64,000 bases of DNA. Source: Tropicimonas marinistellae. Lineage in GTDB: Bacteria; Pseudomonadota; Alphaproteobacteria; Rhodobacterales; Rhodobacteraceae. The notes below the pieces were generated by a model. It had not been told where the DNA came from and made no database searches. It worked only from the letters and a program-made list of their open reading frames with translations. Position numbers and translations under genes: made by a program. The stretch lies in NCBI RefSeq assembly GCF_001509585.1, contig NZ_LNCI01000003.1, forward strand, positions 124,001 to 188,000. The letters run 5' to 3'. This document shows positions 5,100-18,540 of this stretch, in pieces (positions within the stretch are counted from its first letter, which is position 1; each line of letters starts with the position of its first letter).

Positions 5100-5653
5100 G
5101 TTGGAATGATCGCTTTACGGCTCGAGTTGAATTATTCGGTTCGCTGTTTTGCCGCCGCATGTACCATGCACGGAGCCGGGTGTCAGGTGGGAAAGTCCCC
5201 CGGTCGGTTGCTGGCTGCGCTTGCGAACGCGGATCCTTGCCTATGCCGGGCACTCTGAGTGGTGACCTTGCCGGCTGAAACGCGCGGGGGATGTCCAGGG
5301 GAAACGAAGTTTTGGCAGGTCGGCAAAAAAAGGGCCCGACTGGACCCTTTTTCGGGGGCGAACCCCACGTGCTTGTGCACGTTTTCTTTTACTCCCTGTC
5401 GGACGGGCCGACTTGACGGGCAGACGCTAGGGCGATTGGAAATGGCGGTCAACAGGCAAATTTCCGCCTGCTTCCATTTTGATCGCTTATGAGCGCCAAA
5501 ACGGGTGGTGATGGTTTTTCAGGCAGCCGCAGGATCGGCGCAAACGCCGGAGACAGCGCGCATACCCCATGGTGCAGAGCGCCTCGGGTATCCGTTCTGG
5601 CGCATCGCGTCCAACAATGTATCTTCGGGCGGGATTTCGACGGGAGCGAATGG
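5100..5653. other. Long gene-free divergent region
   Basis: The 554 bases between the IalB-family start and the DUF853 start contain only short frames with no recognisable product. It must hold both promoters. It also contains an orphan intrinsic terminator (next entry) about 300 bases before the DUF853 ATG, which suggests an unannotated small RNA or a leader. An in-frame ATG at 5489 would extend DUF853 by 55 residues, but that extension has no family resemblance and no Shine-Dalgarno. Confidence 0.45.
5325..5352. terminator. Orphan bidirectional-looking intrinsic terminator
   Basis: AAAAAGGG (5327-5334) pairs with CCCTTTTT (5345-5352). Two further G-C pairs follow after one mismatch, with loop GACT. 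The stem carries A runs on one side and T runs on the other, so it could terminate transcription on either strand. No protein gene ends nearby. Confidence 0.6.
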
Positions 5654-7201
5654 ATGGATCGTATTTTCGTGGGCGGGGGCGGAGCGGGCTATGGCGTGCC
5701 GCAGGAGATGCTGCTGCGCTATGGCAACCGGCATGGGCTGATTGCCGGCGCAACGGGCACCGGCAAGACGGTGACCTTGCAGATCCTGGCCGAGGGGTTC
5801 TCCGCAATGGGCGTGCCTGTCTTCCTGTCGGACGTGAAGGGGGACCTGAGCGGGCTGGCCGCCGCCGGTTCGGCCATCGCCGGAACCCATGCGCCGTTTA
5901 CCGAACGGGCCGAAACCATCAAGCTCTCCGACTATACCTATTCGGCGTTTCCCGTGACCTTTTGGGATCTTTATGGTGCGCAGGGACACCCGGTCCGGAC
6001 CACGGTGGAGGAGATGGGTCCGCTCCTGTTGTCGCGGTTGCTGGAGCTGAGCGAGGTGCAGGAGGGCATTCTCAACATCGCCTTCCGCGTGGCCGACGAG
6101 CAGGGCTGGCCGCTCCTTGACCTGAAGGACCTGCAATCGCTGCTGGTCTGGGTCGGCGAGGAGCGCAAGGCGCTCTCCCTTCGCTACGGTAACATATCCA
6201 CCGCTTCCGTCGGTGCGATCCAGCGGCGGTTGCTGGTACTGGAGGCGGAGGGCGGGGAGAAGCTATTCGGCGAGCCGGCCCTGGAGCTTGGAGACCTGTT
6301 CCTGACCGATGCCATGGGGCGCGGCCGCGTGAACATCCTGGCGGCCGACAAGCTGATGGCCGCGCCGCGGCTCTATGCGACCTTCCTGTTGTGGTTGCTC
6401 AGCGAGCTTTTCGAGACCCTTCCCGAGGTTGGAGATCCGGACAAGCCGAAGCTCGTCTTCTTCTTCGACGAGGCGCATTTGCTGTTCGACGACGCTCCAC
6501 GGGCGCTGGTGGACAAGGTGGAGCAGGTGGCGCGGTTGATCCGGTCCAAAGGCGTGGGCGTCTTTTTCGTCACCCAGAACCCGGCGGACGTGCCCGAGGA
6601 CATTCTCGGGCAGCTGGGCAACCGGGTACAGCACGCGCTGCGCGCGTTCACCGCGAAAGACCGCCGGGCACTCAAGCAGGCAGCCGAGACCTACCGCGAT
6701 AATCCCGACTTCGAGATTGAAACGGCGATCCGCGAGGTGGGCACCGGCGAGGCCGTGACCTCCTTTCTGGTGAAGAAGGGGATGCCGGGAATGGCCGAGC
6801 GCACGCTCATTCGCCCGCCGTCGTCTCAACTCGGGCCGCTGGATACGGCGGCGCGGGCACAGGTTATCGCCACATCGCCACTGGCTGGCAAATACGACAC
6901 TGCGCTGGACCGGGAGAGCGCGTTCGAAATGCTTAAGGCGCGGACGGCCGCGGCCGCGGCGGAGGCAGAAGCCGCCGAGGCCGCCGAGGAGACGGCGTCG
7001 GTCGCCGAGCGTGAATACCAGTCCGGGCGCCGCTACTCCGGCAGCCGGGTGGGCCGCTCCACATCGAAACCCGTGCGGCGTACATCGCGCACTGACAGTG
7101 TGGCCGAGGCCTTTGCCAAGAGCTTCGCCCGGCAGCTCGGAACGAAATCCGGACAGGCGGTGGTGCGCGGCGTGCTGGGCGGGCTTTTCAAGGGGCGTTA
7201 A
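5654..7201 (+). CDS. HerA-like P-loop ATPase, DUF853 family (E. coli YjgR-like)
   Basis: A 515-residue protein with Walker A GATGTGKT (about residues 32-39) and Walker B LVFFFDEAHLLF (about residue 270). The usual DUF853 core follows, including VFFVTQNPADVPEDILGQLGNR. The C-terminal 80 residues are an Ala/Glu-rich helix and a basic linker. DUF853 proteins belong to the HerA/FtsK superfamily of hexameric ATPases; their substrate is unknown, and YjgR has no firmly assigned function. I chose ATG 5654 because GGGAG lies 7 bases upstream and the protein then starts MDRIFVGGG, as homologues do. It stands alone and converges on the DUF3833 operon. Confidence 0.88.
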   Translation: MDRIFVGGGGAGYGVPQEMLLRYGNRHGLIAGATGTGKTVTLQILAEGFSAMGVPVFLSDVKGDLSGLAAAGSAIAGTHAPFTERAETIKLSDYTYSAFPVTFWDLYGAQGHPVRTTVEEMGPLLLSRLLELSEVQEGILNIAFRVADEQGWPLLDLKDLQSLLVWVGEERKALSLRYGNISTASVGAIQRRLLVLEAEGGEKLFGEPALELGDLFLTDAMGRGRVNILAADKLMAAPRLYATFLLWLLSELFETLPEVGDPDKPKLVFFFDEAHLLFDDAPRALVDKVEQVARLIRSKGVGVFFVTQNPADVPEDILGQLGNRVQHALRAFTAKDRRALKQAAETYRDNPDFEIETAIREVGTGEAVTSFLVKKGMPGMAERTLIRPPSSQLGPLDTAARAQVIATSPLAGKYDTALDRESAFEMLKARTAAAAAEAEAAEAAEETASVAEREYQSGRRYSGSRVGRSTSKPVRRTSRTDSVAEAFAKSFARQLGTKSGQAVVRGVLGGLFKGR

Positions 7202-7383
7202 CGCCGAGCGCTGAAAGCCATGTCCGGGTGGGCGCCGATTGCCGGTCGCAAGAGGCTCTGGCGTGGCGTCATTCGTCGCTGGCGTCTAACCGGATCGGGC
7301 GGCCGCGGGCGGGCGGATGCCCGATCGGGGTCATGCGCGCGCGCCAGAGACAGCGACACCACACAGCGCCTGTGTGCGTCGCT

Positions 7384-7914
7384 TCAGAGTTTTTCGAACT
7401 GGATGATCGCTTCGCCAAGCCGGACACCAAAACGTGATACATACGCCCGGTTGAGAAGCCTGTCCTCGGATTGCAGCCACATCCAGTCATTGAAGTCGAC
7501 TCGCATCGTTCCACTACGCACGGGCAGGTCGATCCGGTAACGCCAGTTGAAGGTATCGCCGCGCTCCATTCCCGTTGCGACACCGAGCACCCCAGGGGCG
7601 GACCCTTCCCAACTGTCTTCCCCAGTCTTTTTCAGGGTCCAGATGCGTTGCTCGGTCTCTCCGTCGTCGTAAAGGAAATCCTCGACGAGCCTGAGGGTGC
7701 TACCGTCCCAGGTTCCCTCGATGTCGACCGTGAATCGCCGCTGTACGGTACCGAAGCGGTCCTGAAACTGCCCATAGGCGACGGTCTGACCTTCGAAGAA
7801 CTCTTCGAGGTTCAATTGCCGCTCTGACAACAATTCATCGTTTTCGCCCGGTGTGCCGGAACAAGCGGCGAGACCGAGAAAAAGAAGGAGAAGTGCGAGG
7901 TTCTTTCTCATCAT
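7384..7914 (-). CDS. DUF3833 family lipoprotein
   Basis: A 176-residue protein with a lipoprotein signal (MMRKNLALLLLFLGLAAC, lipobox LAAC) and one DUF3833 domain: QLNLEEFFEG, FGTVQRRF, GTWDGSTLRLVEDF, WMWLQSEDRLLNRAYVSRFGV. The family is of unknown function. Its beta-rich fold and habitual position beside Cfa-type enzymes suggest a lipid-associated role. It is the last gene of the six-gene minus-strand operon, 25 bases after a second DUF3833 gene that it resembles over its whole length, so the pair probably arose by tandem duplication. Start MMRKN is preferred over an upstream frame because it yields the lipobox. Confidence 0.85.
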   Translation of the reverse strand: MMRKNLALLLLFLGLAACSGTPGENDELLSERQLNLEEFFEGQTVAYGQFQDRFGTVQRRFTVDIEGTWDGSTLRLVEDFLYDDGETEQRIWTLKKTGEDSWEGSAPGVLGVATGMERGDTFNWRYRIDLPVRSGTMRVDFNDWMWLQSEDRLLNRAYVSRFGVRLGEAIIQFEKL

Positions 7915-7939
7915 GAAATCGCTTTCGGGTCGCGCCGGT

Positions 7940-8524
7940 CTACTGGGCGGCAATCGTTTGGTTTTCGTCGACTTGTGCCGGGCGCATCGTTGCGATCAAT
8001 TCCGCGACCTTGATGCCGAACTTGCGCATTTCGGAACGGTTCATGATTGTCCCGTCCGCCATGAGATACATCCAGTCTGTTGTGTCGAGCACGTGACCGC
8101 CGGCATCCTCTGGCAACCGGATCCGGTAACGCAGCATCACTGTTGATCCGGATATCACACCGCGCCCCTCGCCCTCGATATCATCGGCCTTTGCCACGAA
8201 TGTGTTGTTCGACCGGAGTTCAAGAAACCACTTCCGCTGCATTGTGTTGCCGTTGGAATAGGTGAAGACCTCGGTCAGGGTTCCACTGTCACCGCTCCAT
8301 TCGCCGTACATCTCGGCGACGAAACTGTTGGTCATGCGTCCGGTCGGACCATAGATAAGCCCTTCCGATTGGATCGGACCGTTCAGGACCTGTTTCAGAT
8401 CGAACTCCGGCGCGGTTGCCGCATAGTCGCGCGGCCGTTGCGCGCGAAAGCTGAGAAGCATCGCGCGGGCCAGAACGGCGACGACTACGAGCAGGATCAA
8501 AGCGAAAATGAACGTCTGGGTCAT
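7940..8524 (-). CDS. DUF3833 family protein with N-terminal membrane anchor
   Basis: A 194-residue protein with one hydrophobic anchor (FIFALILLVVVAVLARAMLL, residues 4-23) and no lipobox Cys, followed by a DUF3833 domain (FDLKQVLNG, GRMTNSFVAEMYG, GTLTEVFTYSNG, DWMYLMADGTIMNRSEMRKFGI). Its ATG overlaps the stop of the MFS gene by 4 bases (ATGA). The anchor predicts an inner-membrane protein facing the periplasm, whereas its paralogue downstream is a lipoprotein. The two may therefore work on opposite sides of the periplasm; that is inference. Function unknown. Confidence 0.85.
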   Translation of the reverse strand: MTQTFIFALILLVVVAVLARAMLLSFRAQRPRDYAATAPEFDLKQVLNGPIQSEGLIYGPTGRMTNSFVAEMYGEWSGDSGTLTEVFTYSNGNTMQRKWFLELRSNNTFVAKADDIEGEGRGVISGSTVMLRYRIRLPEDAGGHVLDTTDWMYLMADGTIMNRSEMRKFGIKVAELIATMRPAQVDENQTIAAQ

Positions 8525-9786
8525 GAAAGGGGCTCCTCGTTCGGCAACGCCAGGACCAAGGCCATGGCGAAGAGTTTCAGGATGCAGGGAATGATTGCGT
8601 ATGCGATGGTCAGGGCGCGTATTGCGTCGGGCGTGTTGTCTGTGCCCGGGGCGAAGCCGCTCGCCTCCAGCGCCGGCAGGACAAGGAAGGCGGCGAGCGC
8701 GAGGCCCAACTTTCCGGCAAACGACCATATGCCGAAAGCGGCCGAGGCGTTCAGGCCAGATCGTGTCAGAGCAACCGAGAACATGGCGGGCAGCACGACC
8801 ATGTCCGCTCCGAGCGCCGCGCCCGAGGCGATGCAGATCACCGCGAAGGCGGCCGCGTTACCCGGGCCAATGAAGCCAGCTCCGACGAAGCCGAGAATGG
8901 CGAGCGGCATGGCCAGCAGAAGCACGGAGCGCGCACCGATCCGGTTTGCCAATCGTGCCCAGCCCGGAACGCTTAGACCGGCGCTGAGGAAAAAGAGCAG
9001 TAGGAATGGTCCGGCCATGCCCGTCAGTTCCAGGCGGTCTTCGACGAAGAACAGGAATAGCGTCGAGGTGATTGCGACCGGCAGGCTATTGACCAGTGCC
9101 AGGGACAGCAGGCGAAGGGCGCCTGCGCGACGAAGGCCGGACAGGGACAGGCTTGCGCCCGGTCGCACAGGGCGGCGCCACATCGGCAAGGTCAGCCCGG
9201 CGACGAGACAGGCAACGATCCCAAGTAGAAACCCGAACGCGACGTAGCTGTCAGCTTCGCCACCCGCACCTGATAGCAGCGTCGGTGCCATGGCGGCGAT
9301 AACCACACCTGCCAGCATGCCGGCCTCTCGCCAGCCAGCAAGCGTCATGAGCTGCCGCGGATCCCGGCTGCCCGCGAGCGTTTCGCTTCGGCCATACAAG
9401 AGGATGGAGCCGAGGCTGTAGGCGGAAAAGAGGAGTACAAGCACGGCAAGGAGTTGCCAGATCACCGTCGGGCCGGCGTCGAGCGTGAAGAGCAACGGAA
9501 ACCCGACGGCAAGGCCTGCGGCGGCGGCCATTGCGAACCCAACCTGTGCGCCCGGCCAGCGATCGATGGCCCAGCCGATGAGAGGATCCTGCACCAGGTC
9601 CACCAATCGTATCGAGAGCAGCAGTGCGCCGATAGACGCCAGGCCGATGCCGAGGTTGACGGACGCAAACCGTGGCAGGTGAATGTAGAGCGGTATGCCC
9701 GCCGACGCGAGCATGAGCGCGTAGAGGCTCACCCTCGGATACAGGTTCACCGCCTGTGCCGACCCTATGAGGACCCTGGCACTCAT
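8521..9786 (-). CDS. MFS transporter, GPH/MFS_2-like
   Basis: A 421-residue polytopic protein with about 12 hydrophobic segments. The first-half motif RLVDLVQDPLIGWAIDRWPG (about residues 60-79) is the loop 2-3 signature of glycoside-pentoside-hexuronide/cation symporters and the related MFSD2 lipid transporters. Start and stop are each shared by ATGA overlaps with the neighbouring genes, so it is strictly co-translated in the operon. In other proteobacteria, MFS proteins of this group accompany Cfa-like, amine-oxidase-like and DUF3833 genes. A lysophospholipid or acyl substrate is an attractive guess, but nothing in the sequence proves it. Confidence 0.8.
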   Translation of the reverse strand: MSARVLIGSAQAVNLYPRVSLYALMLASAGIPLYIHLPRFASVNLGIGLASIGALLLSIRLVDLVQDPLIGWAIDRWPGAQVGFAMAAAAGLAVGFPLLFTLDAGPTVIWQLLAVLVLLFSAYSLGSILLYGRSETLAGSRDPRQLMTLAGWREAGMLAGVVIAAMAPTLLSGAGGEADSYVAFGFLLGIVACLVAGLTLPMWRRPVRPGASLSLSGLRRAGALRLLSLALVNSLPVAITSTLFLFFVEDRLELTGMAGPFLLLFFLSAGLSVPGWARLANRIGARSVLLLAMPLAILGFVGAGFIGPGNAAAFAVICIASGAALGADMVVLPAMFSVALTRSGLNASAAFGIWSFAGKLGLALAAFLVLPALEASGFAPGTDNTPDAIRALTIAYAIIPCILKLFAMALVLALPNEEPLS

Positions 9787-10277
9787 CCGCCGCGCAGCTT
9801 TCGCGTGAAGCTCTTCGAGCGGGAGTTTTCGCCGAGAAAGATCGACATGAACCGATACGTGATCTGCGGATGCGAAAGGGTGCAGGTACGCGTGCCGTTC
9901 AGCCAGAAATCCACTCGGTTCGGGCCATCGGTCACGGCGAGGTATCTGTCACCCTTGCGCACTGCAACGAAGCACCCCTCCAACTGACCGCGAACGGGCA
10001 GGGCCCCGCCGGTCCGGGTCAGTTCACGCATGGTCCCTTCGACAAGATCGTATTGCGTCAGGTTGCGCATGTAGCGCAGTTCCAGACCGAAATCCTGGTT
10101 CCAGTCGAGCGGCGCTCCGCCGCGTGTGAAAAGCCGCGCCTCGTAGAGGGGAAACCCGAGATAGCGGTACACGGCCGCGCCGCGCTCGCTGGCGCCGGGC
10201 AGAACCGAGCCGATCGCGGTCGCCGGATGCGGCAGCGCCAGGAGGAGGAGAAGCAATAGGCCAATGGTTCTATGCAT
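9783..10277 (-). CDS. Exported chalcone-isomerase-like protein
   Basis: A 164-residue precursor with a signal peptide (MHRTIGLLLLLLLALPHPATA). The mature part reads GAAVYRYLGFPLYEARLFT, then LELRYMRNLTQYDLVEGTMRELTR and the basic C-terminal NSRSKSFTRKLRGG. The conserved layout (YxxLGFxxYxAxLF and LxYxRxL) is that of bacterial chalcone-isomerase-like secreted domains, a fold shared with fatty-acid-binding proteins. Genuine flavonoid chemistry is unlikely; binding or altering a lipid acyl chain is more plausible. It overlaps the Cfa stop by 8 bases and the MFS start by 4. ATG 10277 was chosen because it gives the signal peptide. Confidence 0.8.
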   Translation of the reverse strand: MHRTIGLLLLLLLALPHPATAIGSVLPGASERGAAVYRYLGFPLYEARLFTRGGAPLDWNQDFGLELRYMRNLTQYDLVEGTMRELTRTGGALPVRGQLEGCFVAVRKGDRYLAVTDGPNRVDFWLNGTRTCTLSHPQITYRFMSIFLGENSRSKSFTRKLRGG

Positions 10278-11427
10278 GGGACAACTCGACCTGCGCGACG
10301 TTGGTGTGCCCGACGGCAAAGGAGGCGGCACAGATCTCGAGGTAGTATTGCCAGTTGCGGAAGAACTGTTCTCCGTTGCCGAGTTCGTCGATCCGCCGCT
10401 TCTGCCGGGACAGGCGCTCTGCCCAGATCCGGCAGGTCCTTGCGTAATCCGAGCCGAAGTTGAAGCTGTCGCGAACGGCCAATCCGGCCGCGGCGGCCTG
10501 TTCGGCGATGACCCTGTCGGAAAGCAACATACCGCCGGGAAAAACGTAGTGCCGGATGAAATCAGATGATGTGCGGTAGGTGTCGAAGAAGCTGTCGGGC
10601 ACGGTAATCGCCTGAACGAGCGCACGCCCGCCCTCCGCGAGACTGCGCTTGATGACGCCGAAGTAGTCCGGCCAGTATCGCTGCCCCACCGCCTCGATCA
10701 TCTCGATGGAGACGATATTGTCGTATCGCCCGTCGATCTCGCGATAGTCCTTGAGTTGTATATCGGCGCGGCCGTCCAGGCGGGCTTCTGCGAAGCTGTG
10801 CTGGTTCCGTGAAATGGTGACGCCGCTGACATGGCGACCTGTTTCGACGGCTTGCTCGGCAAAACCACCCCATCCACACCCGATTTCCAGCAGCTTCTCT
10901 CCATCGGTGAGCCGCGACAGCGCCCGGGCGTTCTTGCGGCGGTGGCCTTCTTCCAGGTCCGCCGGCGCATCGTCGAACAGCGCGGAGGAATAGGTCATTC
11001 CCTCGTCAAGCCAGAGTTGATAAAACTCGTTGCCCACATCGTAGTGGGCGCGGATGTTCTTACGCGCGCCGCGGCGGGAGTTTGCGCGCAGGGCCGTGTC
11101 GACCAGCCGAAACCTAAGCCGGTTCAGGGGGGCGGCGTGATCGTAGGCGCCGAGTTCTTTGCGGTTCCGCATCGCCAGGGTGATCAATCCTTCAACCGAG
11201 GGGGTATCCCACAATCCCTGCACATAGGCTTCGCCAAGTCCGATCTGCCCGTGCGCCGCGATGGCGGCGACGGCAGACCAGTCGCGGATTTCCATAACGG
11301 CTTCCGCACCCGTGCTTCCGAAGCGATGGACATCGCCTTCGGGCGTGCAGACTGTCAATTGACCCTCAGTGACCTGCTCGCACGTCGAAAGGAATTTGGT
11401 CTTCAGAGCCCTCGCCGCCAGTCTCAT
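10270..11427 (-). CDS. Cyclopropane-fatty-acyl-phospholipid synthase-type SAM methyltransferase
   Basis: A 385-residue CFAS-family protein. Visible motifs are NIRAHYDVGNEFYQLWLDEGMTYS, the SAM-binding LLEIGCGWGGFAEQA and the SIEMIEAVG segment. The C-terminal YYLEICAASF aligns with the E. coli Cfa active-site Cys region. The family methylates phospholipid acyl-chain double bonds to give cyclopropane or methylated unsaturated chains. Paired with an FAD amine-oxidase-like gene, it resembles genes of the Rhodobacter RpoE/ChrR regulon and of furan-fatty-acid synthesis (Ufa/Cfa), but I cannot assign which product is made. ATG 11427 has GGAGGG 8 bases upstream. The start lies 62 bases inside the end of the preceding gene. 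Confidence 0.9.
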   Translation of the reverse strand: MRLAARALKTKFLSTCEQVTEGQLTVCTPEGDVHRFGSTGAEAVMEIRDWSAVAAIAAHGQIGLGEAYVQGLWDTPSVEGLITLAMRNRKELGAYDHAAPLNRLRFRLVDTALRANSRRGARKNIRAHYDVGNEFYQLWLDEGMTYSSALFDDAPADLEEGHRRKNARALSRLTDGEKLLEIGCGWGGFAEQAVETGRHVSGVTISRNQHSFAEARLDGRADIQLKDYREIDGRYDNIVSIEMIEAVGQRYWPDYFGVIKRSLAEGGRALVQAITVPDSFFDTYRTSSDFIRHYVFPGGMLLSDRVIAEQAAAAGLAVRDSFNFGSDYARTCRIWAERLSRQKRRIDELGNGEQFFRNWQYYLEICAASFAVGHTNVAQVELSHA

Positions 11428-12709
11428 GGTGGAGACCCTCCATTTGTGTCTTCTGGTTGATCTTGCGGACGACCCGAAGCGCGCTTGCGATGCCGTCCTC
11501 GTGGAAGCCGTGGCGGTTGTAGGCGCCGGCAAACCAAGTTCTGTTTTGACCCTGCATGCGTTGCAGGCCGCGCTGTGCCTGCAAGGCCGGCCCATCGAAA
11601 ACCGGGTGGGCAAAGTCCTTGCGGTCGTACACCAGGTGCTCTGCGATCTCCGCCGGCGGATTGAGCGTGACAAAAAGCGGATCGCGCTCGGGTATCGCTT
11701 GCAGGCGGTTCATCCAGTAGGTGACGCCAATGGCCCCATCCTGTGACCGATAGGCCCAACTTGACCAGCAGTCGCGCCGCTTCGGCATCTGTGCCGGGTC
11801 GCAGTGCAGCACGGCGGTGTTCGTCTGGTAGCGTATCGCGCCGAGCAGGGCGCGTTCGGATGCGGTGGCGTTCGGGCCGAGGAGTGCCAGCGCCTGGTCT
11901 GAGTGGCAGGCGAGTACGACCTCGTCGAAGCGCTCCTCGTGACCTTCGGCAACACGGAGTGTTGCGCCCAAGGCGTCACGCTTCAGGCCCACGATGCGCG
12001 CGTTCAAGCGGATCGTGCTGCCGTTCGCTCGCATGGCCCTTTCGAGCCTGCGCACGTATTCGATGCTGCCGCCCGCAACTGTCCACCATTGGTGCTTTCC
12101 CGCGCCTGCGAGCAAGGCGTGGTTGCGAAAGAATCTGACCAATGAGCGGGCCGGAAAGCGATCCACCTCCCGGACAGGTGTCGACCAGATAGCGCCGCAC
12201 ATGGGCATGAGGTAGTAATCTCGAAACCAGGTGCCGAGCCGGAGTTCATCAACCAGTTCCCCGATGGACTTGTTGTCATCATCCGCAGCCAACTCGGCCC
12301 GTTTCCCGAACCGGAGGATATCCCGAACCATCCCGTGGAAGCGTGGCCGGACAAGGTTGCGCCGCTGGGCAAGCAATCCGCGCAGGTTGCCAAGGCCATA
12401 TTCAATGCGTCCATGGTCGATGCTCGCGCCGAAGCTCATGTCGCTTCTGGTGACTGGCACGTCGAGGTCGCGGAACAGACGGGTCAGGTTGGGATAGGTC
12501 GCGTAGTTGAACACAATGAAACCGGTATCCACCGGCTGATCGCCATTTTGCCCGGCGATCACCGTGCGCGCATGACCGCCGAGTCGTCCGGAGGACTCGA
12601 AGAGTGTCACATCGTGATCGGCACCCAGGTAATAGGCCGCTGACATGCCAGATATGCCAGCGCCGACGATGGCGATACGTTTCCGTGGTGCCGATTGGCA
12701 GTCTAACAT
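11366..12709 (-). CDS. FAD-dependent amine-oxidase-like oxidoreductase, first gene of lipid operon
   Basis: A 447-residue flavoprotein beginning MLDCQSAPRKR, then the dinucleotide-binding IAIVGAGISGMSAAYYLG (about 12-29) with the FAD ribose-binding acidic residue in DVTLFESSGRLGGHA. FAD-family features continue with the QPVDTGFIVFN segment and the C-terminal WFAGAYNRHGFHEDGIAS. Proteins of this type are annotated as flavin amine oxidases or cyclopropane/cyclopropene fatty-acid synthesis proteins and sit beside Cfa enzymes. A desaturase or oxidase role on phospholipid chains is likely by analogy with the furan-fatty-acid pathway. GAGGA lies 4 bases before the ATG. The leader is only about 20 bases from the predicted sigma-E-like start site. 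Confidence 0.88.
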   Translation of the reverse strand: MLDCQSAPRKRIAIVGAGISGMSAAYYLGADHDVTLFESSGRLGGHARTVIAGQNGDQPVDTGFIVFNYATYPNLTRLFRDLDVPVTRSDMSFGASIDHGRIEYGLGNLRGLLAQRRNLVRPRFHGMVRDILRFGKRAELAADDDNKSIGELVDELRLGTWFRDYYLMPMCGAIWSTPVREVDRFPARSLVRFFRNHALLAGAGKHQWWTVAGGSIEYVRRLERAMRANGSTIRLNARIVGLKRDALGATLRVAEGHEERFDEVVLACHSDQALALLGPNATASERALLGAIRYQTNTAVLHCDPAQMPKRRDCWSSWAYRSQDGAIGVTYWMNRLQAIPERDPLFVTLNPPAEIAEHLVYDRKDFAHPVFDGPALQAQRGLQRMQGQNRTWFAGAYNRHGFHEDGIASALRVVRKINQKTQMEGLHHETGGEGSEDQIPFDVRAGH

Positions 12710-12734
12710 GAAGTCCTCGTTTTCTTTCTTGGAC

Positions 12735-12764
12735 TGAATACGTTCGCTTTCCGGTTGCGGATCA
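12735..12764 (-). promoter_or_regulatory. Sigma-E (ECF)-type promoter of the FAD/Cfa operon
   Basis: On the minus strand TGATCC (12764-12759) is separated by exactly 18 bases from TATTCA (12740-12735), with the ATG about 25 bases further at 12709. TGATCC with a TA-initial -10 is the promoter type known for the RpoE/ChrR singlet-oxygen regulon of Rhodobacter sphaeroides. The same spacing recurs before the glutathione peroxidase gene at 14725-14754. Confidence 0.7.
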
Positions 12765-13177
12765 GAAGTGTGCAAGAAACATTCCCGCCGTTGTGGGGAA
12801 GGCGTGTTGGCGCGTGGGTCGCATTTGGGGAGGAGCGCAAAGACCGATCCGATCGCTGGTGAGGTGCGTATCAGGCGCATGAACAACAACACCGCCCAAC
12901 ACTTCTCTCACGTTCGTCGTGCGCACCGGACAAACACCCATATCAATGGATTGGGTCTTCTGCGTTCGGACTTTTGCCTTGAGGACGCGCCGCACTCATT
13001 TTCGGCCAACCGGTTCAGCGTCGCGCACCGGACGGTACGGGAACCTGGAGGTTCGCGCGCACTTGAGCATGGCGTGTCGACCTTGTGCGGCCCACGTGAA
13101 GTGCGCGGTCTCCCGGCACGGGAATTCACACGCGAAAGGCGGGAACGTGTCAGTCGCGCAGCGCTAGGGGCAGCAGA
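12765..13177. other. Divergent intergenic region before the first SDR; no gene seen
   Basis: The 413 bases upstream of the SDR contain only short frames without recognisable features on either strand. A CGATCC-N18-TATCAG pair on the plus strand at 12845-12874 is one base off the sigma-E-like pattern, but it lies about 300 bases from the SDR start. A weak AGGGGC precedes the SDR ATG at 13178. Confidence 0.4.
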
Positions 13178-13903
13178 ATGAGTTCGATATCGGGAAAGAG
13201 TTACTGGCTTGTGGGGGCGAGCGAGGGTCTCGGGCGCGCTCTGGCCACGGCTTTGGCGCGCGAAGGGGCGCAACTCGTGCTTTCGGCCCGCAGCCTCTCG
13301 CGGCTTCAGGAACTCGCCGACACGCTGCCCGACGCGTGGGCGGTGCAGGTCGATGTGACTGACGCAGACTCGGTGCGCGACGCCGCGCAGGCGGCGGGAC
13401 CGGTCGACGGCGTGATCTACAACGCCGGCGCATACGATCCGATGCCCACGCAAGACTGGAACACGCAAGCTGCACTGAACATGTGCGACGTGAACTACCA
13501 AGGTGCTGTGCGGGTGCTTGGAGAGGTTCTCCCGAGGTACATGGCGGACGGAACCGGCGATATCACGCTTGTGGGTTCTCTCGCGGGCTACCGCGGCTTG
13601 CCAGCTGCCATTGGTTACGGGGCGAGCAAGGCCGCGTTGGTGAGCCTCGCCGAGACAATGCGGTATGACTGTCGCCGGACCGGAGTCACTGTGCGGTTGG
13701 TCAATCCGGGCTTCATTCGTACCCGCTTGACGGATAAGAACAATTTCAAGATGCCAATGCTCATGTCGCCGGAACAAGCCGCTGAGCATATCGTGAGGGC
13801 GATGAAATCAAAACGCTTCCGAACCGACTTCCCCGCACCCTTTTCCTGGGCGATCCGGGCACTTGAGATGTTGCCGGATGCGCTCGCCTACCGCATCGGG
13901 TGA
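13178..13903 (+). CDS. Short-chain dehydrogenase/reductase (SDR) of the stress island
   Basis: A 241-residue classical SDR with the cofactor loop GASEGLG (residues 13-19) and NAG near residue 88. The catalytic Ser lies in VGSLAGYRG and the YxxxK motif is YGASK (about 148-152). The C-terminal 30 residues carry a hydrophobic helix (FSWAIRALEMLPDALAYRIG), hinting at membrane or lipid association. The substrate is unknown. SDRs of this type accompany the Cfa/amine-oxidase genes in related clusters. It is transcribed divergently from the lipid operon and converges on the glutathione peroxidase gene. Confidence 0.88.
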   Translation: MSSISGKSYWLVGASEGLGRALATALAREGAQLVLSARSLSRLQELADTLPDAWAVQVDVTDADSVRDAAQAAGPVDGVIYNAGAYDPMPTQDWNTQAALNMCDVNYQGAVRVLGEVLPRYMADGTGDITLVGSLAGYRGLPAAIGYGASKAALVSLAETMRYDCRRTGVTVRLVNPGFIRTRLTDKNNFKMPMLMSPEQAAEHIVRAMKSKRFRTDFPAPFSWAIRALEMLPDALAYRIG

Positions 13904-14130
13904 CCGTCACTCGCGAGCAAACCGTTTTTGGCGCGAGCAAGCTCTAAGGGTTCAATCACACGTCGAAAAAATACGCGGGTGCTGAGCGTAAGAAAGCAAA
14001 TCTAGCGCGTACAAGAAGTGTTCGGGCTCCATTAGTCGGAAGCCCTCCGACGTCGGTGTTTAGCGCCGTTTCCCGCGAACGATCCAAGCACTTCGGCGGG
14101 TTGGGTTAATTGGAGGACGCGGCAGCTTTG

Positions 14131-14160
14131 AAAAAAGTACGGGCATTGCAAATGCCCGTT
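14131..14160 (-). terminator. Rho-independent terminator of the glutathione peroxidase gene
   Basis: A perfect 9-bp stem, ACGGGCATT / AATGCCCGT (14139-14147 with 14151-14159), with a 3-base loop. On the minus strand it is followed by ACTTTTTTC. It lies 20 bases after the peroxidase stop at 14180. Confidence 0.88.
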
Positions 14161-14179
14161 GCGCTCGACGTGTGTGAAA

Positions 14180-14701
14180 TCAGTTCAGCAATGCCTCGAT
14201 TTGGCGCGTGATCTCGGCAGACAGCGGCTTTGTTCGCGAGCCCCACGTCTTGACCACGTCGCCCTCGGGGCTGACGAGGACCTTGTTGAAGTTCCAGCGA
14301 GGGACAAATCCCGTGTTCGATTTCACCGACTGGTAGAACGGATGCGCCTGCGCGCCTCGCACGTGCGTGATGTCTGTCATCGGCAGGTCGAGGCCGAAAT
14401 TGACCGCGCAAAACTCCTTCACAGCCTCTGCACTGGACAGTTCCTGCCGAAAGTCGTCCGACGGCACTGCAAGCACCTTGAGGCCGCGGTCACGGTATTG
14501 ATCGTAGAGTTCCTGCAGTCCGTCGTATTGCCGGGTGAATCCACAGCGGGAGGCCGTGTTCACGACGAGCACAGGATCTCCTCGCCATTCCTCCAGCGAG
14601 ATGGTGCCGCCGTCGATTGAATTGAAGGTCCCCGCTACCGGGCTCGAATTCACCTGGCTTCCGATTCCAATGAGTAGCGTCAAAAGAGCCATGCGCAGCA
14701 T
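14180..14701 (-). CDS. Exported glutathione/thioredoxin peroxidase family protein
   Basis: A 173-residue protein with an N-terminal hydrophobic export signal (MLRMALLTLLIGIG), placing it in the periplasm. The peroxidatic Cys is C53 in NTASRCGFT, and the Trp/Asn pair in WNFNK is kept. The usual FPCNQF motif is VPSDDF (residues 79-84), so the catalytic Gln and the resolving Cys normally found there are absent. Reaction mechanism and reductant are therefore uncertain. AGGAGG lies 7 bases before ATG 14701. A sigma-E-like promoter sits upstream and a terminator downstream, so the gene is monocistronic. Peroxidases of this family reduce lipid hydroperoxides, which fits the island. Confidence 0.88.
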   Translation of the reverse strand: MLRMALLTLLIGIGSQVNSSPVAGTFNSIDGGTISLEEWRGDPVLVVNTASRCGFTRQYDGLQELYDQYRDRGLKVLAVPSDDFRQELSSAEAVKEFCAVNFGLDLPMTDITHVRGAQAHPFYQSVKSNTGFVPRWNFNKVLVSPEGDVVKTWGSRTKPLSAEITRQIEALLN

Positions 14702-14724
14702 ATCCTCACCTCCTTGCTTTGAGA

Positions 14725-14754
14725 TGTTTACGCCGCTGATGCACTGCCGGATCA
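14725..14754 (-). promoter_or_regulatory. Sigma-E (ECF)-type promoter of the glutathione peroxidase gene
   Basis: On the minus strand TGATCC (14754-14749) and TAAACA (14730-14725) are separated by 18 bases. The ATG follows about 24 bases beyond the -10 with a strong AGGAGG between them. Element and spacing match the promoter before the FAD/Cfa operon. Confidence 0.72.
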
Positions 14755-14952
14755 CACTGCGAGGCAAAGACGCGGCCGTCGCAATTGACCGCCATGGAGT
14801 GAGGCGCACCGAGGTTTGTGTTCGTACATGCCAATCCAGACTCCGGACAGCATGTTCTTTCCCGTTCGGGAGCAGACACGCATGAAACTGCCGCCGAATT
14901 CCATTTTAGAGACCGCGCGCTATGTGACGAGCAGGAGATCAAAGGTGTGGCG

Positions 14953-15615
14953 ATGAAAACAGCACTTGTCATAGGCGCATCGGGCGGGATTGGCGCCGCG
15001 ATGACCACCTCGTTGTCAGGCCGTGGTGTGGACGTGACCGGGGTTTCGCGCAGCGTGGATGGGTTGGACGTGACCGATCAAGGCTCGGTGGACCGCGTTC
15101 TGGGTGCGCTACACGGTCCCTTCGACTTCCTTTTCGTCGCATCCGGCGTCCTCGCGCCGAACGGCGCGGAGCCAGAGAAATCGCTCGGCCAGATTTCGGC
15201 GGCGCAGATGGCACATGTTCTGGCCGTCAACACCATCGGTCCGGCAATGATCCTGCGTCACGCCCCCCGGTTGTTGCCACGCAAAGGGCGCTCGGTCCTG
15301 GCGGTTCTCACCGCCCGCGTCGGGTCGATCGGCGACAATCAATTGGGAGGCTGGTACTCCTACCGCGCCTCAAAGGCGGCGGCCAACCAGATCGTGCGAA
15401 CTGCGGCGATCGAGATTGGGCGCAGTCACCGGGAGGCGGCTGTGATCGCGCTGCATCCCGGAACGGTTGCCACGCCCTTTACCGAGAACTACCCCGGCCA
15501 TCGAAAGGTCGCTCCCGCAGCTGCGGCGGAGAACCTATTGCGCGTGATCGACGGCGTGGGGCCAGAGCATTCGGGTCGTTTCTTCGACTGGGCAGGCGAG
15601 GAGGTGCCGTGGTGA
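14953..15615 (+). CDS. SDR family oxidoreductase upstream of the photolyase
   Basis: A 220-residue SDR of the short C-factor-like type with GASGGIG (residues 8-14) and the active-site motif YSYRASK (about 138-144). The TGxxxGxG loop is atypical in lacking the leading Thr. GTVATPFTENY near residue 180 is the usual substrate-loop start. ATG 14953 starts the protein at MKTALVIGAS. Its stop overlaps the GTG start of the photolyase by 4 bases, so the two form a coupled pair. The same SDR-photolyase coupling is familiar in stress clusters; the substrate is unknown. Confidence 0.85.
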   Translation: MKTALVIGASGGIGAAMTTSLSGRGVDVTGVSRSVDGLDVTDQGSVDRVLGALHGPFDFLFVASGVLAPNGAEPEKSLGQISAAQMAHVLAVNTIGPAMILRHAPRLLPRKGRSVLAVLTARVGSIGDNQLGGWYSYRASKAAANQIVRTAAIEIGRSHREAAVIALHPGTVATPFTENYPGHRKVAPAAAAENLLRVIDGVGPEHSGRFFDWAGEEVPW

Positions 15616-17135
15616 GGCTTGTTCTCGTTCTCGGCGACCAGTTGAGTGAAAACATCGCGGCGCTCCGACAGGCAGACAGGGCGCAGGACCTCGTCGTCAT
15701 GGCGGAGGTCGCGGCAGAGACGCAATACGTGCCTCATCACCCCAAGAAAATCGCATTCATCCTTGCGGCGATGCGGAAATTCGCCGCTCGCCTTCGTGAG
15801 GACGGCTGGCAGGTGGCTTACACCAGGCTGGACGATCCGGAGAACACGGGAACGGTCCCTGGCGAACTCCTGCGGCGTGCCTCAGAGACCGGCGCGACTG
15901 ATGTCGTGGCAACCCGGCCCGGCGAATGGCGGCTGATCGAGGCGCTGGAGACCGTGCCGCTCGATCTGGAAATCCTCGAGGACGACCGTTTCATTGCCAG
16001 CCACGCCGATTTCGACCGCTGGGCAGAGGGGCGCAAGCAGCTGCGGATGGAGAATTTCTACCGCGAGATGCGGCGCCGGACGGGGTTGTTGATGGAGGGC
16101 GACAAGCCAGCCGGCGGCAAATGGAACTTCGACACGGAGAACCGGAAACCCGCCAGCGACGACATGTTCCTGCCCCGGCCGTCGCGGTTCGAGCATGACG
16201 ACACTGTTGCCGAGGTGCTCGAATTGGTGGAAACGCGGTTCGGTGGCAATTTCGGGCAGCTTCACCCGTTCGGCCTGGCGACGGACGCTGCGCAGGCCGA
16301 GGCGGTCCTTGAGCAATTTATCCACGCCGCGCTGCCGGCCTTCGGGGACTACCAGGATGCAATGCTCGCGGGGCGCCCATTCCTTTACCATTCCCTGATG
16401 TCGGCCTATCTCAACGTTGGCCTGCTCGACCCGCTGGACGTCTGCCGACGTGTGGAAACCGCATGGCAGGCCGGGCATGCGCCGCTCAACGCGGCCGAGG
16501 GGTTCATCCGGCAGATCATCGGCTGGCGAGAATTCGTTCGCGGCATCTACTTCCACGAAGGTCCGTGCTACGTGGAGCGCAACGAACTCGGTCATGAGCG
16601 AGACCTTCCCGCGCTCTACTGGGGGGCCGAAACCGGCATGGTCTGTCTCCGCGAGGCGGTCGCACAAACTCGCGAAGAGGCCTATGCACACCACATTCAA
16701 CGCCTGATGGTCACCGGGAACTTCGGGCTGGTTGCCGGGATCGACCCGGCGCAACTCCATGAATGGTACCTTGCTGTTTATGCTGACGCGTTCGAATGGG
16801 TCGAAGCGCCAAACACCCTTGGCATGAGCCAGTTCGCCGACGGCGGGCTTTTCGCCTCAAAACCCTATGTATCCTCCGGCAACTACATCGACAGGATGTC
16901 GGATTACTGCGGCACCTGTCGCTACTCGGTGAAGGCAAAGCACGGAGACGATGCCTGCCCGTTCAACCTGCTCTACTGGCACTTTCTCAACCGGCATCGC
17001 GCCCGTTTCTCAAGCAATCCCCGGATCGCGACAATGTACCGAACTTGGGATCGCATGGATGCGCAACGCCGGCAGGCGATCCTGCATGGGGCGGAGAATT
17101 TCCTGAAGAAGATGGATTCGGGTGCGCAGGTCTGA
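15612..17135 (+). CDS. Prokaryotic FeS-type (6-4) photolyase/cryptochrome (PhrB/CryB family)
   Basis: A 507-residue protein of the FeS-BCP/CryPro family. Four cysteines, C345, C433, C436 and C449 (in MVCLRE, YCGTC and DACPFN), have exactly the spacing (88, 3, 13) of the [4Fe-4S] ligands of Agrobacterium PhrB. The N-terminal LVLVLGDQLS starts the antenna-chromophore domain, and the C-terminal half binds FAD. The family repairs (6-4) photoproducts in DNA with blue light; in Rhodobacter, CryB also affects photo-oxidative gene expression. GTG 15612 within the SDR stop codon is chosen over GTG 15609 because it gives the coupling overlap. Confidence 0.93.
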   Translation: MRLVLVLGDQLSENIAALRQADRAQDLVVMAEVAAETQYVPHHPKKIAFILAAMRKFAARLREDGWQVAYTRLDDPENTGTVPGELLRRASETGATDVVATRPGEWRLIEALETVPLDLEILEDDRFIASHADFDRWAEGRKQLRMENFYREMRRRTGLLMEGDKPAGGKWNFDTENRKPASDDMFLPRPSRFEHDDTVAEVLELVETRFGGNFGQLHPFGLATDAAQAEAVLEQFIHAALPAFGDYQDAMLAGRPFLYHSLMSAYLNVGLLDPLDVCRRVETAWQAGHAPLNAAEGFIRQIIGWREFVRGIYFHEGPCYVERNELGHERDLPALYWGAETGMVCLREAVAQTREEAYAHHIQRLMVTGNFGLVAGIDPAQLHEWYLAVYADAFEWVEAPNTLGMSQFADGGLFASKPYVSSGNYIDRMSDYCGTCRYSVKAKHGDDACPFNLLYWHFLNRHRARFSSNPRIATMYRTWDRMDAQRRQAILHGAENFLKKMDSGAQV

Positions 17136-17238
17136 ATCCGAACGGCCACGTCACAAAGGGCATTCGCGCAAGGACATGTCCGGGCGCGTCCAACGACCGC
17201 CCGCGCAATGTGCGAACAGTCGATTTTGTGTGGTTGGG

Positions 17239-18540
17239 CTACAGCGGGCGGATCTTCAACCGCGTTAGCCGGTTCTGTTCGCGAGCCACCACCTCGAAGC
17301 GGAAGCCATGGAAAGAGAAGACCTGACCCTGCGTCGGGATGGTCTGCGCCTCGTGGATGACCAGGCCAGCGATGGTGTTGGCCTCTTCATCAGGCAGGTT
17401 CCAATCCTTCGCGCGATTGAGGTCTCGGATCGTCATGGCGCCATCCACGAGAAAATCGCCGGTGTCCGTCCGGCGGATCGGGTGTTCGGCATCCACATCG
17501 AACTCATCAGTGATCTCGCCGACGATTTCTTCGAGGATGTCCTCCAGCGTGATCAGTCCTTCGAGTGCGCCGTATTCGTCCACCACGAGCGCGAAATGCG
17601 TATGCCGCCGCAGGAATTGGCGCATCTGGTCGTCGAGCGTGGTGGTCTCGGGCACGAAATAGGGGGCCTTGGCCACCGCCATGATATCGAAGCCGGCCAT
17701 AGTCTGATCCAACGAGTCCGACTCGCGCATCATCTGCTCCAGTGCGCGGAGCAGGTCCTTGGCGTGGACCACCCCGACGATATTCTCTTGCTCGCCACGG
17801 AAGACCGGCAGGCGGGTGTGGGGGGAAGCGAGCACCTGGCTGACGATTTCCTCCGCAGGCGCTTCGGCGTCGATCATCTCGATCTGGCTGCGGTGAAGCA
17901 TGATCTCCTCGACCATCCGTTCGCTGAGATCGAGCGCGCCGAGGAGGCGGTCGCGGTCCTCTTTTTCAACAACGCCTTCAGAGTGGCCGATCTGCAGTGC
18001 ACCGACAATCTCCTCGCGCACGGACAACATGGAGTCAGGGTCGATCTTCATGCCGAACAGTCTGAGCACGCCGCGCACGATCACGCGCACGGCGGCCACG
18101 GCCGGGGAGAGCACGGTTATTACCGGCCCGATCAGCGGCGCGCTGCGGGCGGCCGCGCGTTCGGGATCGTTGATAGAGTAGGTCTTGGGCAGGACTTCCG
18201 CAAAGATCAGAACAAGAAGCGTCATGACCAACGTAGCGAGCGCCACGCCGCTGTCGCCGAAGGCTTGGGTGAAGGCGGCGGTGGCCAGCGAGGTGGCGAG
18301 GATATTGACCAGGTTGTTGCCCAGCAGGATACCGCCGATTAGCCGCTCATTGTCCTCCTTGAGCGCAAGCGCCGCTTCGGCGCCGCGATCGCCCTTGTCC
18401 GCCGCGGAGCGGAGTCGGCCGCGGGAGGCGGCGGTAAGCGCCGTTTCCGATCCGGAAAAGAATCCGGACAGGATCAGCAGGCAGAGGATCGCACCGGCCG
18501 TGATCCAGAAAGCGGCGTCGAGGGATGAAACGGTGTCCAT
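17239..18540 (-). CDS. HlyC/CorC (CNNM, DUF21-CBS) family membrane protein
   Basis: A 433-residue protein. The DUF21/CNNM transmembrane domain (about 10-190) has the SGFFSGSETALTAAS signature and four hydrophobic segments. A CBS-pair domain follows (about 205-340, including MLHRSQIEMIDA and FALVVDEYGALEGLITLEDILEEIVG), then a CorC/HlyC C-terminal domain (about 350-430). The family is linked to magnesium/cobalt efflux and membrane-ion homeostasis. The historical haemolysin name reflects no proven toxin activity. It converges on the photolyase and seems monocistronic. Confidence 0.92.
   Translation of the reverse strand: MDTVSSLDAAFWITAGAILCLLILSGFFSGSETALTAASRGRLRSAADKGDRGAEAALALKEDNERLIGGILLGNNLVNILATSLATAAFTQAFGDSGVALATLVMTLLVLIFAEVLPKTYSINDPERAAARSAPLIGPVITVLSPAVAAVRVIVRGVLRLFGMKIDPDSMLSVREEIVGALQIGHSEGVVEKEDRDRLLGALDLSERMVEEIMLHRSQIEMIDAEAPAEEIVSQVLASPHTRLPVFRGEQENIVGVVHAKDLLRALEQMMRESDSLDQTMAGFDIMAVAKAPYFVPETTTLDDQMRQFLRRHTHFALVVDEYGALEGLITLEDILEEIVGEITDEFDVDAEHPIRRTDTGDFLVDGAMTIRDLNRAKDWNLPDEEANTIAGLVIHEAQTIPTQGQVFSFHGFRFEVVAREQNRLTRLKIRPL

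Follow-up and report, generated by a model that had tools for sequence, protein, structure and literature searches.

The closest described counterpart of the locus considered here is the sigma-E (RpoE) operon of Rhodobacter sphaeroides, which comprises RSP1091 (UfaD), RSP1090 (UfaO, a DUF1365 protein), RSP1089, RSP1088 and RSP1087 (PMC7380195; PMC3818230; these and the other papers are cited from excerpts). UfaM (RSP2144), UfaD and UfaO make a methyl furan fatty acid in this bacterium, where UfaO is reported to be required, and by itself enough, for the furan step; RSP1089 and RSP1088 are 402 and 186 aa long (PMC7380195), and RSP_1088 has been placed in the core regulon (PMC5507510). The RpoE2-ChrR regulon of Shewanella oneidensis includes pgpD, an operon of phr (SO_4169) with a short-chain dehydrogenase/reductase (SDR) gene (SO_4170), and a phrB-cfa operon (SO_3386-3374) (PMC4336711). 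Plasmid p1 of Aeromonas sp. BC14 carries genes for a photolyase, an SDR, an FAD oxidoreductase, and DUF1365, Cfa-family, DUF2878, chalcone isomerase family and DUF3833 proteins. Here, we analyzed a stretch of 64,000 nucleotides from Tropicimonas marinistellae (contig NZ_LNCI01000003.1, positions 124,001 to 188,000; hereafter the window), in which the block at positions 7206–17238 is very probably a composite photo-oxidative stress island under sigma-E (RpoE)/ChrR control, joining a furan-lipid/singlet-oxygen locus to a putative envelope lipid-carrier module. Most of this island is a known regulon newly arranged; what it adds is the displacement of ufaO, a change in an active site and a fold-based case for the carrier module.

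Six minus-strand genes, all but the third assigned by Pfam, follow one another in the order FAD amine oxidase, CMAS, chalcone-isomerase-like, MFS_2, DUF3833 and DUF3833. Judging from the coordinates of the likely starts, successive genes share 62, 8, 4 and 4 bp, and a 25-bp gap separates the last two. Two SDR genes, a glutathione peroxidase gene and a photolyase gene lie next to this operon. An earlier note on this DNA had named all of these genes in this order, and they were all found; it missed, however, a decayed ufaO in the apparent gap at 12710–13177, the active-site change and the insertion boundaries.

Like the RSP1091-1087 operon, the island has counterparts of UfaD and of the SDR and a sigma-E-type promoter, and the genome encodes RpoE and ChrR. 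In place and size, its major facilitator superfamily (MFS) and DUF3833 genes correspond to RSP1089 and RSP1088, which we take, from their order and length, to encode an MFS protein and a DUF3833 protein, respectively. Unlike in R. sphaeroides, a UfaM-like gene, a chalcone-isomerase-like gene and a gene for a second DUF3833 lipoprotein belong to the operon, ufaO is decayed and present elsewhere, the SDR gene is on the opposite strand, and rpoE-chrR are on another contig. The peroxidase gene, the SDR gene paired with a DPRP photolyase gene and the Cfa-family gene are shared with the Shewanella regulon, whose members are spread over several loci, whereas here they occupy one 10-kb block. The Aeromonas plasmid has the same core set, including the chalcone-isomerase-like and DUF3833 genes, but differs in having DUF2878, no MFS gene, an intact DUF1365 gene, and interspersed NTF2-like and TIGR02450 genes.

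The sigma-E motif has been published as TGATC-N18-CGTAT in one paper (PMC5241685), and Shewanella RpoE2 members have promoters of the TGATCC and CGTAA type, with TGATCC and CGTAAT at a mapped start (PMC4336711). The window holds two exact TGATC-N17-CGTA sites, both on the minus strand: one upstream of the FAD amine oxidase gene, here ufaD2, at the head of the six-gene operon (12739–12764), and one upstream of the peroxidase gene (14729–14754). Only 0.36 such sites would be expected, and at least two were obtained in 3 of 100 shuffles. For comparison, 23 named loci encoding a chalcone-isomerase-like protein were fetched. An exact site precedes ufaD in 20 of the 21 that hold this gene (the miss is L137), and also faces ufaO in 14 of the 15 in which this gene is divergent (the miss is L138). 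On another contig of the genome, C15, a sigma-70-family gene (Sigma70_r2 and r4) and the adjacent chrR (TIGR02451, 213.9 bits) are divergent from a second ufaD (ufaD1), with the motif between them. A sigma-E-type TGATCC...CGTA site also lies just upstream of a sigma-70-family gene on contig C34 (L181 1057–1935), which is rpoH-like by eye; this is as expected from the RpoE-to-RpoHII cascade already described (PMC6852236). The earlier note's connection with RpoE/ChrR and furan fatty acids is borne out by an extended RSP1091-1087-type operon, by its sigma-E-type promoter, and by the sigma-70-family gene and chrR in the genome.

Comparison with other genomes revealed that the gene set recurs. The chalcone-isomerase-like, MFS and DUF3833 genes stand together in 22 of the 23 named loci, accompanied by ufaD in 21, CMAS in 17, ufaO in 16 and two DUF3833 genes in 13; L151 lacks any partner, and L139 is a contig of 3.8 kb that ends within the CMAS gene. 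Five Ruegeria loci have neither ufaO nor CMAS in the cluster, and their ufaO lies beside rpoE-chrR. Among 22 widely inspected alphaproteobacterial loci, DUF3833 was found near the chalcone-isomerase-like gene in 15 and MFS in 14. Some relatives carry chrR-rpoE divergent from ufaD-ufaO-MFS-DUF3833-SDR (three loci), and in others the CMAS and chalcone-isomerase-like genes are inserted into the ufa operon (three loci). On a Cupriavidus plasmid, a Lipocalin_2 protein gene adjoins the chalcone isomerase gene, and no DUF3833 is listed in that stretch. The set is thus shared by alphaproteobacteria and two plasmids, one from a betaproteobacterium and the other from a gammaproteobacterium, which indicates that the arrangement is not due to chance.

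The operon begins with the UfaD-like FAD amine oxidase/desaturase gene ufaD2 (11366–12709, minus strand; PF01593), whose assignment as a UfaD homologue is based on its family, its promoter and a tree of cluster relatives. The next gene (10270–11475, minus strand, with a likely ATG start at 11427; PF02353, 250 bits) encodes an S-adenosylmethionine (SAM) methyltransferase of the CMAS/Cfa family. In the cyclopropane fatty acid synthase (CFAS) of Escherichia coli, the catalytic bicarbonate is bound via Glu239, His266 and Tyr317 (PMC11387697). The alignment shows that the window protein keeps the Glu and has Gln in place of the His, the two positions scored, and therefore departs from the Cfa ligand set; the same Gln occurs in all 31 distinct aligned CMAS sequences. 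Judging from its sequence, the methyltransferase called Cfa-type in the earlier note looks UfaM-like, which fits methylation without ring closure. This likeness was derived from the CMAS family, the gene context, the tree and the Gln. The enzyme is encoded in one cluster with ufaD/ufaO, and its gene adjoins ufaO in relatives such as L059, L063 and L110. The His-to-Gln change may help annotation to tell UfaM-like methylases from true cyclopropane synthases.

The cluster holds only a remnant of ufaO (12840–13115, plus strand; found by tblastn, hidden Markov model score 46), which lies between ufaD2 and the SDR gene, where relatives such as L048 carry ufaO. The genome has one intact DUF1365 gene, on contig C7 (L005 8647–9480), beside a tRNA-Trp gene (9614–9689), a kind of site at which mobile DNA often inserts. 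When the open frame from C7 was compared with the whole window by tblastn, the remnant matched with 34.8% over 92 aa (E 7.5e-11; next match, E 0.06), and in a 900-bp search the value was E 5e-13. The remnant aligns with residues 8–99 of the C7 frame, and residues 8–20 precede the likely ATG; the first 13 matched residues therefore cover the promoter region, and the coding part starts near 12879. Both places have CGATCC-N16-CGTA with a shared T-to-C change, and in the window this is a decayed divergent sigma-E-type promoter with one mismatch (12845–12870, plus strand), formerly that of ufaO and the SDR gene. The latter (13178–13903, plus strand; PF00106) is the counterpart of RSP1087 by its operon place, which is equivalent in relatives. 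In the trees, of which only the topology was considered, the C7 ufaO and the remnant (on a long branch) group within roseobacter-type ufaO, and ufaD1 beside the sigma-chrR pair groups with the ufaD of a congener, in which rpoE-chrR, ufaD1, ufaO and the SDR gene are in one place. The simplest history that we infer is that a roseobacter-type cluster was gained, the native ufaO and SDR gene were lost, and the gained ufaO moved together with its promoter. A single DUF1365 gene was counted in 26 of the 27 genome handles tested and two in the remaining one (one genome was counted twice). A fatty acid desaturase gene (L005 6633–7580) lies about 1 kb from the intact ufaO.

The same congener delimits the island. 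The flanking genes (5489–7201 and 17239–18540) are neighbours in its genome, 191 bp apart, and the alignable DNA ends at 7205 and restarts at 17239; the block between them, missing at the equivalent congener site, contains all of the genes described here. A gain in T. marinistellae and a loss in the congener are indistinguishable from two genomes alone. A search of the congener genome gave no match for DUF3833. The genes for its photolyase and peroxidase counterparts, which are 80% and 68% identical, respectively, are on contigs other than that of the empty site, and the island thus gathers functions that are scattered in the congener.

The peroxidase gene (14180–14701, minus strand; PF00255) encodes a PgpD-like glutathione peroxidase with a GSHPx domain, its NCBIfam rows being below the cut-off. 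Its N-terminus appears signal-like by eye, whereas a hydropathy scan gave no segment over the threshold. The second SDR gene (14953–15615, plus strand; best NCBIfam row PRK09009, below the cut-off) overlaps by 7 bp the gene for a cryptochrome/photolyase of the FeS-BCP type (15609–17135, plus strand; DPRP domain, PF04244). The nearest solved structure is R. sphaeroides cryptochrome CryB (3zxs, E 9.9e-232), followed by PhrB, listed as a (6-4) photolyase; the family assigned in the earlier note stands, and its (6-4) label is no more than putative, CryB being nearer. The match of the peroxidase and the SDR-photolyase pair to members of the Shewanella RpoE2 regulon supports the photo-oxidative stress reading.

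The remaining four operon genes form the putative lipid-carrier module. The chalcone-isomerase-like protein (9783–10277, minus strand) has no Pfam match at E 0.001 and reaches 15.7 bits against PF16036, below the cut-off of 27, whereas its operon counterparts in Aeromonas (38 bits) and Cupriavidus (47 bits) pass; the label of the earlier note is upheld by fold comparison, in which the predicted model has the chalcone isomerase (CHI) fold. The protein has two invariant Cys residues and a hydrophobic N-terminus, read as an export signal. It is 8 and 11% identical to the plant CHI-fold fatty-acid-binding proteins AtFAP1 and AtFAP3, from which its signal-like N-terminus also sets it apart. The MFS_2/GPH-family transporter gene lies at 8521–9786 (minus strand; PF13347, 141.7 bits). 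Both DUF3833 proteins far exceed the PF12915 cut-off of 25 bits: DUF3833A (7384–7914, minus strand; 190 bits) is a lipoprotein by its LAAC motif, read by eye, and DUF3833B (7940–8524, minus strand; 177 bits) has an N-terminal hydrophobic helix. Their mutual identity of 27% points to two lineages. The model of DUF3833B (predicted local distance difference test, pLDDT, 89.5) is a 10-strand calycin barrel, a likeness of shape only. In comparison with nitrobindin and fatty-acid-binding protein (FABP) calycins, DUF3833 has no weighty sequence match in the PDB and is predicted to be membrane-anchored or a lipoprotein.

The folds and the co-occurrence lend weight, short of proof, to the idea of the earlier note that modified lipid chains are what these proteins act on. 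The role that we consider most likely, albeit tentatively, is that of an envelope module in which the chalcone-isomerase-like protein, the two DUF3833 barrels and MFS_2 would bind and move modified or peroxidised acyl lipids. It is conceivable, with somewhat less assurance, that they constitute an unrecognised trans-envelope carrier system across proteobacteria, which, in the periplasm, would bind acyl chains that carry a furan or have been damaged by singlet oxygen, and would return or export them; lipocalin may then replace DUF3833 in one lineage, and DUF2878 may replace MFS. RSP1087-1089 have been known as members of a singlet-oxygen operon that show no effect on the fatty acid profile. Since the predicted folds of the chalcone-isomerase-like and DUF3833 proteins include fatty-acid binders and MFS_2 travels with them, ligand binding and lipid turnover become testable.

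The genes, promoter sites, remnant, insertion boundaries and folds described above were computed, and from them we infer the regulation in vivo, the furan product, the cell location and the lipid ligands. Singlet oxygen would free RpoE from the ChrR encoded on C15, and RpoE would then read the TGATC-N17-CGTA promoters of the island. Together with UfaO from C7, UfaD and the UfaM-like methyltransferase would turn cis-vaccenoyl phospholipid chains into a methyl furan fatty acid, a scavenger of singlet oxygen. The periplasmic-type glutathione peroxidase may reduce peroxides, and the CryB-type photolyase/cryptochrome may act on light or DNA damage, while the exported-looking chalcone-isomerase-like protein, the anchored DUF3833 barrels and MFS_2 would bind and move modified or peroxidised acyl lipids.

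Several observations weigh against this scheme. No exact or one-mismatch sigma-E site was found shortly upstream of the SDR-photolyase pair, unlike in Shewanella, and the SDR gene at 13178 is preceded solely by the decayed site. The C7 ufaO promoter is mismatched, and as many one-mismatch sites were obtained in 15 of 200 shuffles of the locus. A second full-length CMAS protein of the genome (C12, outside the cluster) also has the Gln, which alone is therefore no proof of UfaM. The counterparts of RSP2144, RSP1088 and RSP1089 are indirect assignments, the first by family and gene context and the other two by operon place and size. The top row of the fold comparison for DUF3833 is a designed barrel, and a shared predicted fold is no demonstration of a ligand. 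In 5 of the 22 widely inspected loci, none of DUF3833, MFS, UfaD, UfaO or CMAS was found near the chalcone-isomerase-like gene. Finally, single deletions of RSP1087, RSP1088 and RSP1089 are reported to leave the fatty acid profile of R. sphaeroides unchanged (PMC7380195), and a role of these three genes in furan fatty acid synthesis itself is therefore unlikely.

The last two observations also favor the rival that survives best, according to which the island is an ordinary sigma-E regulon collection and its unassigned genes are functionally unrelated passengers; DUF3833A, moreover, is related to a gene that other genomes carry on its own, next to a PP-loop (ttcA-like) gene. We consider this rival unlikely, since the operon genes overlap, distant alphaproteobacteria share the trio of chalcone-isomerase-like, MFS and DUF3833 genes, and the first and last of these occur with DUF2878 on the Aeromonas plasmid. 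In loci of the stand-alone type (L045 2243–7355 and similar), the DUF3833 lipoprotein-like gene and the PP-loop gene have yidC nearby, and no furan-lipid genes were seen in the stretch around them.

There is a small chance that the chalcone-isomerase-like protein is not a carrier but a furan-pathway enzyme that, for example, takes the methyl diene, or else an opened furan, through a ring closure or an isomerisation. UfaO suffices for the furan step, as noted above, and the five-gene RSP1091-1087 operon, as described in the cited excerpts, leaves such an enzyme no place; in addition, with its signal-like N-terminus the protein would reside outside the cytoplasm, and its Arg is not universal. 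It is hardly probable, in turn, that the role of the chalcone-isomerase-like, MFS and DUF3833 proteins is to sense lipid damage or to signal it, for instance to ChrR-degrading proteases, rather than to carry lipid. RpoE activation under singlet oxygen does depend on RSP1090 and RSP1091, and lipid peroxidation has been proposed as the messenger (PMC3818230; PMC6852236), but in these excerpts such a requirement is shown for ufaD and ufaO and for none of RSP1087-1089, and no rpoE-chrR was present in the stretch seen at seven chi-MFS-DUF3833 loci, some of which end at contig ends. A loss of furan fatty acid production with the in-cluster ufaO, leaving methylated unsaturated chains as the end point, is suggested by the remnant and its decayed promoter and is very improbable given that C7 has an intact, same-lineage DUF1365 gene with a near-consensus promoter.

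Some further loci deserve mention. A photolyase, DUF3833 and chalcone-isomerase-like gene form a short row in the alphaproteobacterial loci L114 and L118, with no MFS or ufa genes in the stretch. On plasmids of Aestuarium and Marivivens, a chalcone-isomerase-like and MFS pair has carbon monoxide dehydrogenase genes in its vicinity, and neither DUF3833 nor ufa genes are listed for these stretches. In a HlyD-family adaptor gene on contig C1 (L176 464–1804), a sigma-E-type site falls within the first part of the longest open frame; it could serve as a promoter only if the gene in fact starts further in. A fasciclin-domain protein adjoins chrR in five roseobacter loci (4797–5312 in L129, the protein examined with Pfam), in four of which, all but L193, its gene is behind a sigma-E-type site; this protein is possibly a further member of the regulon.

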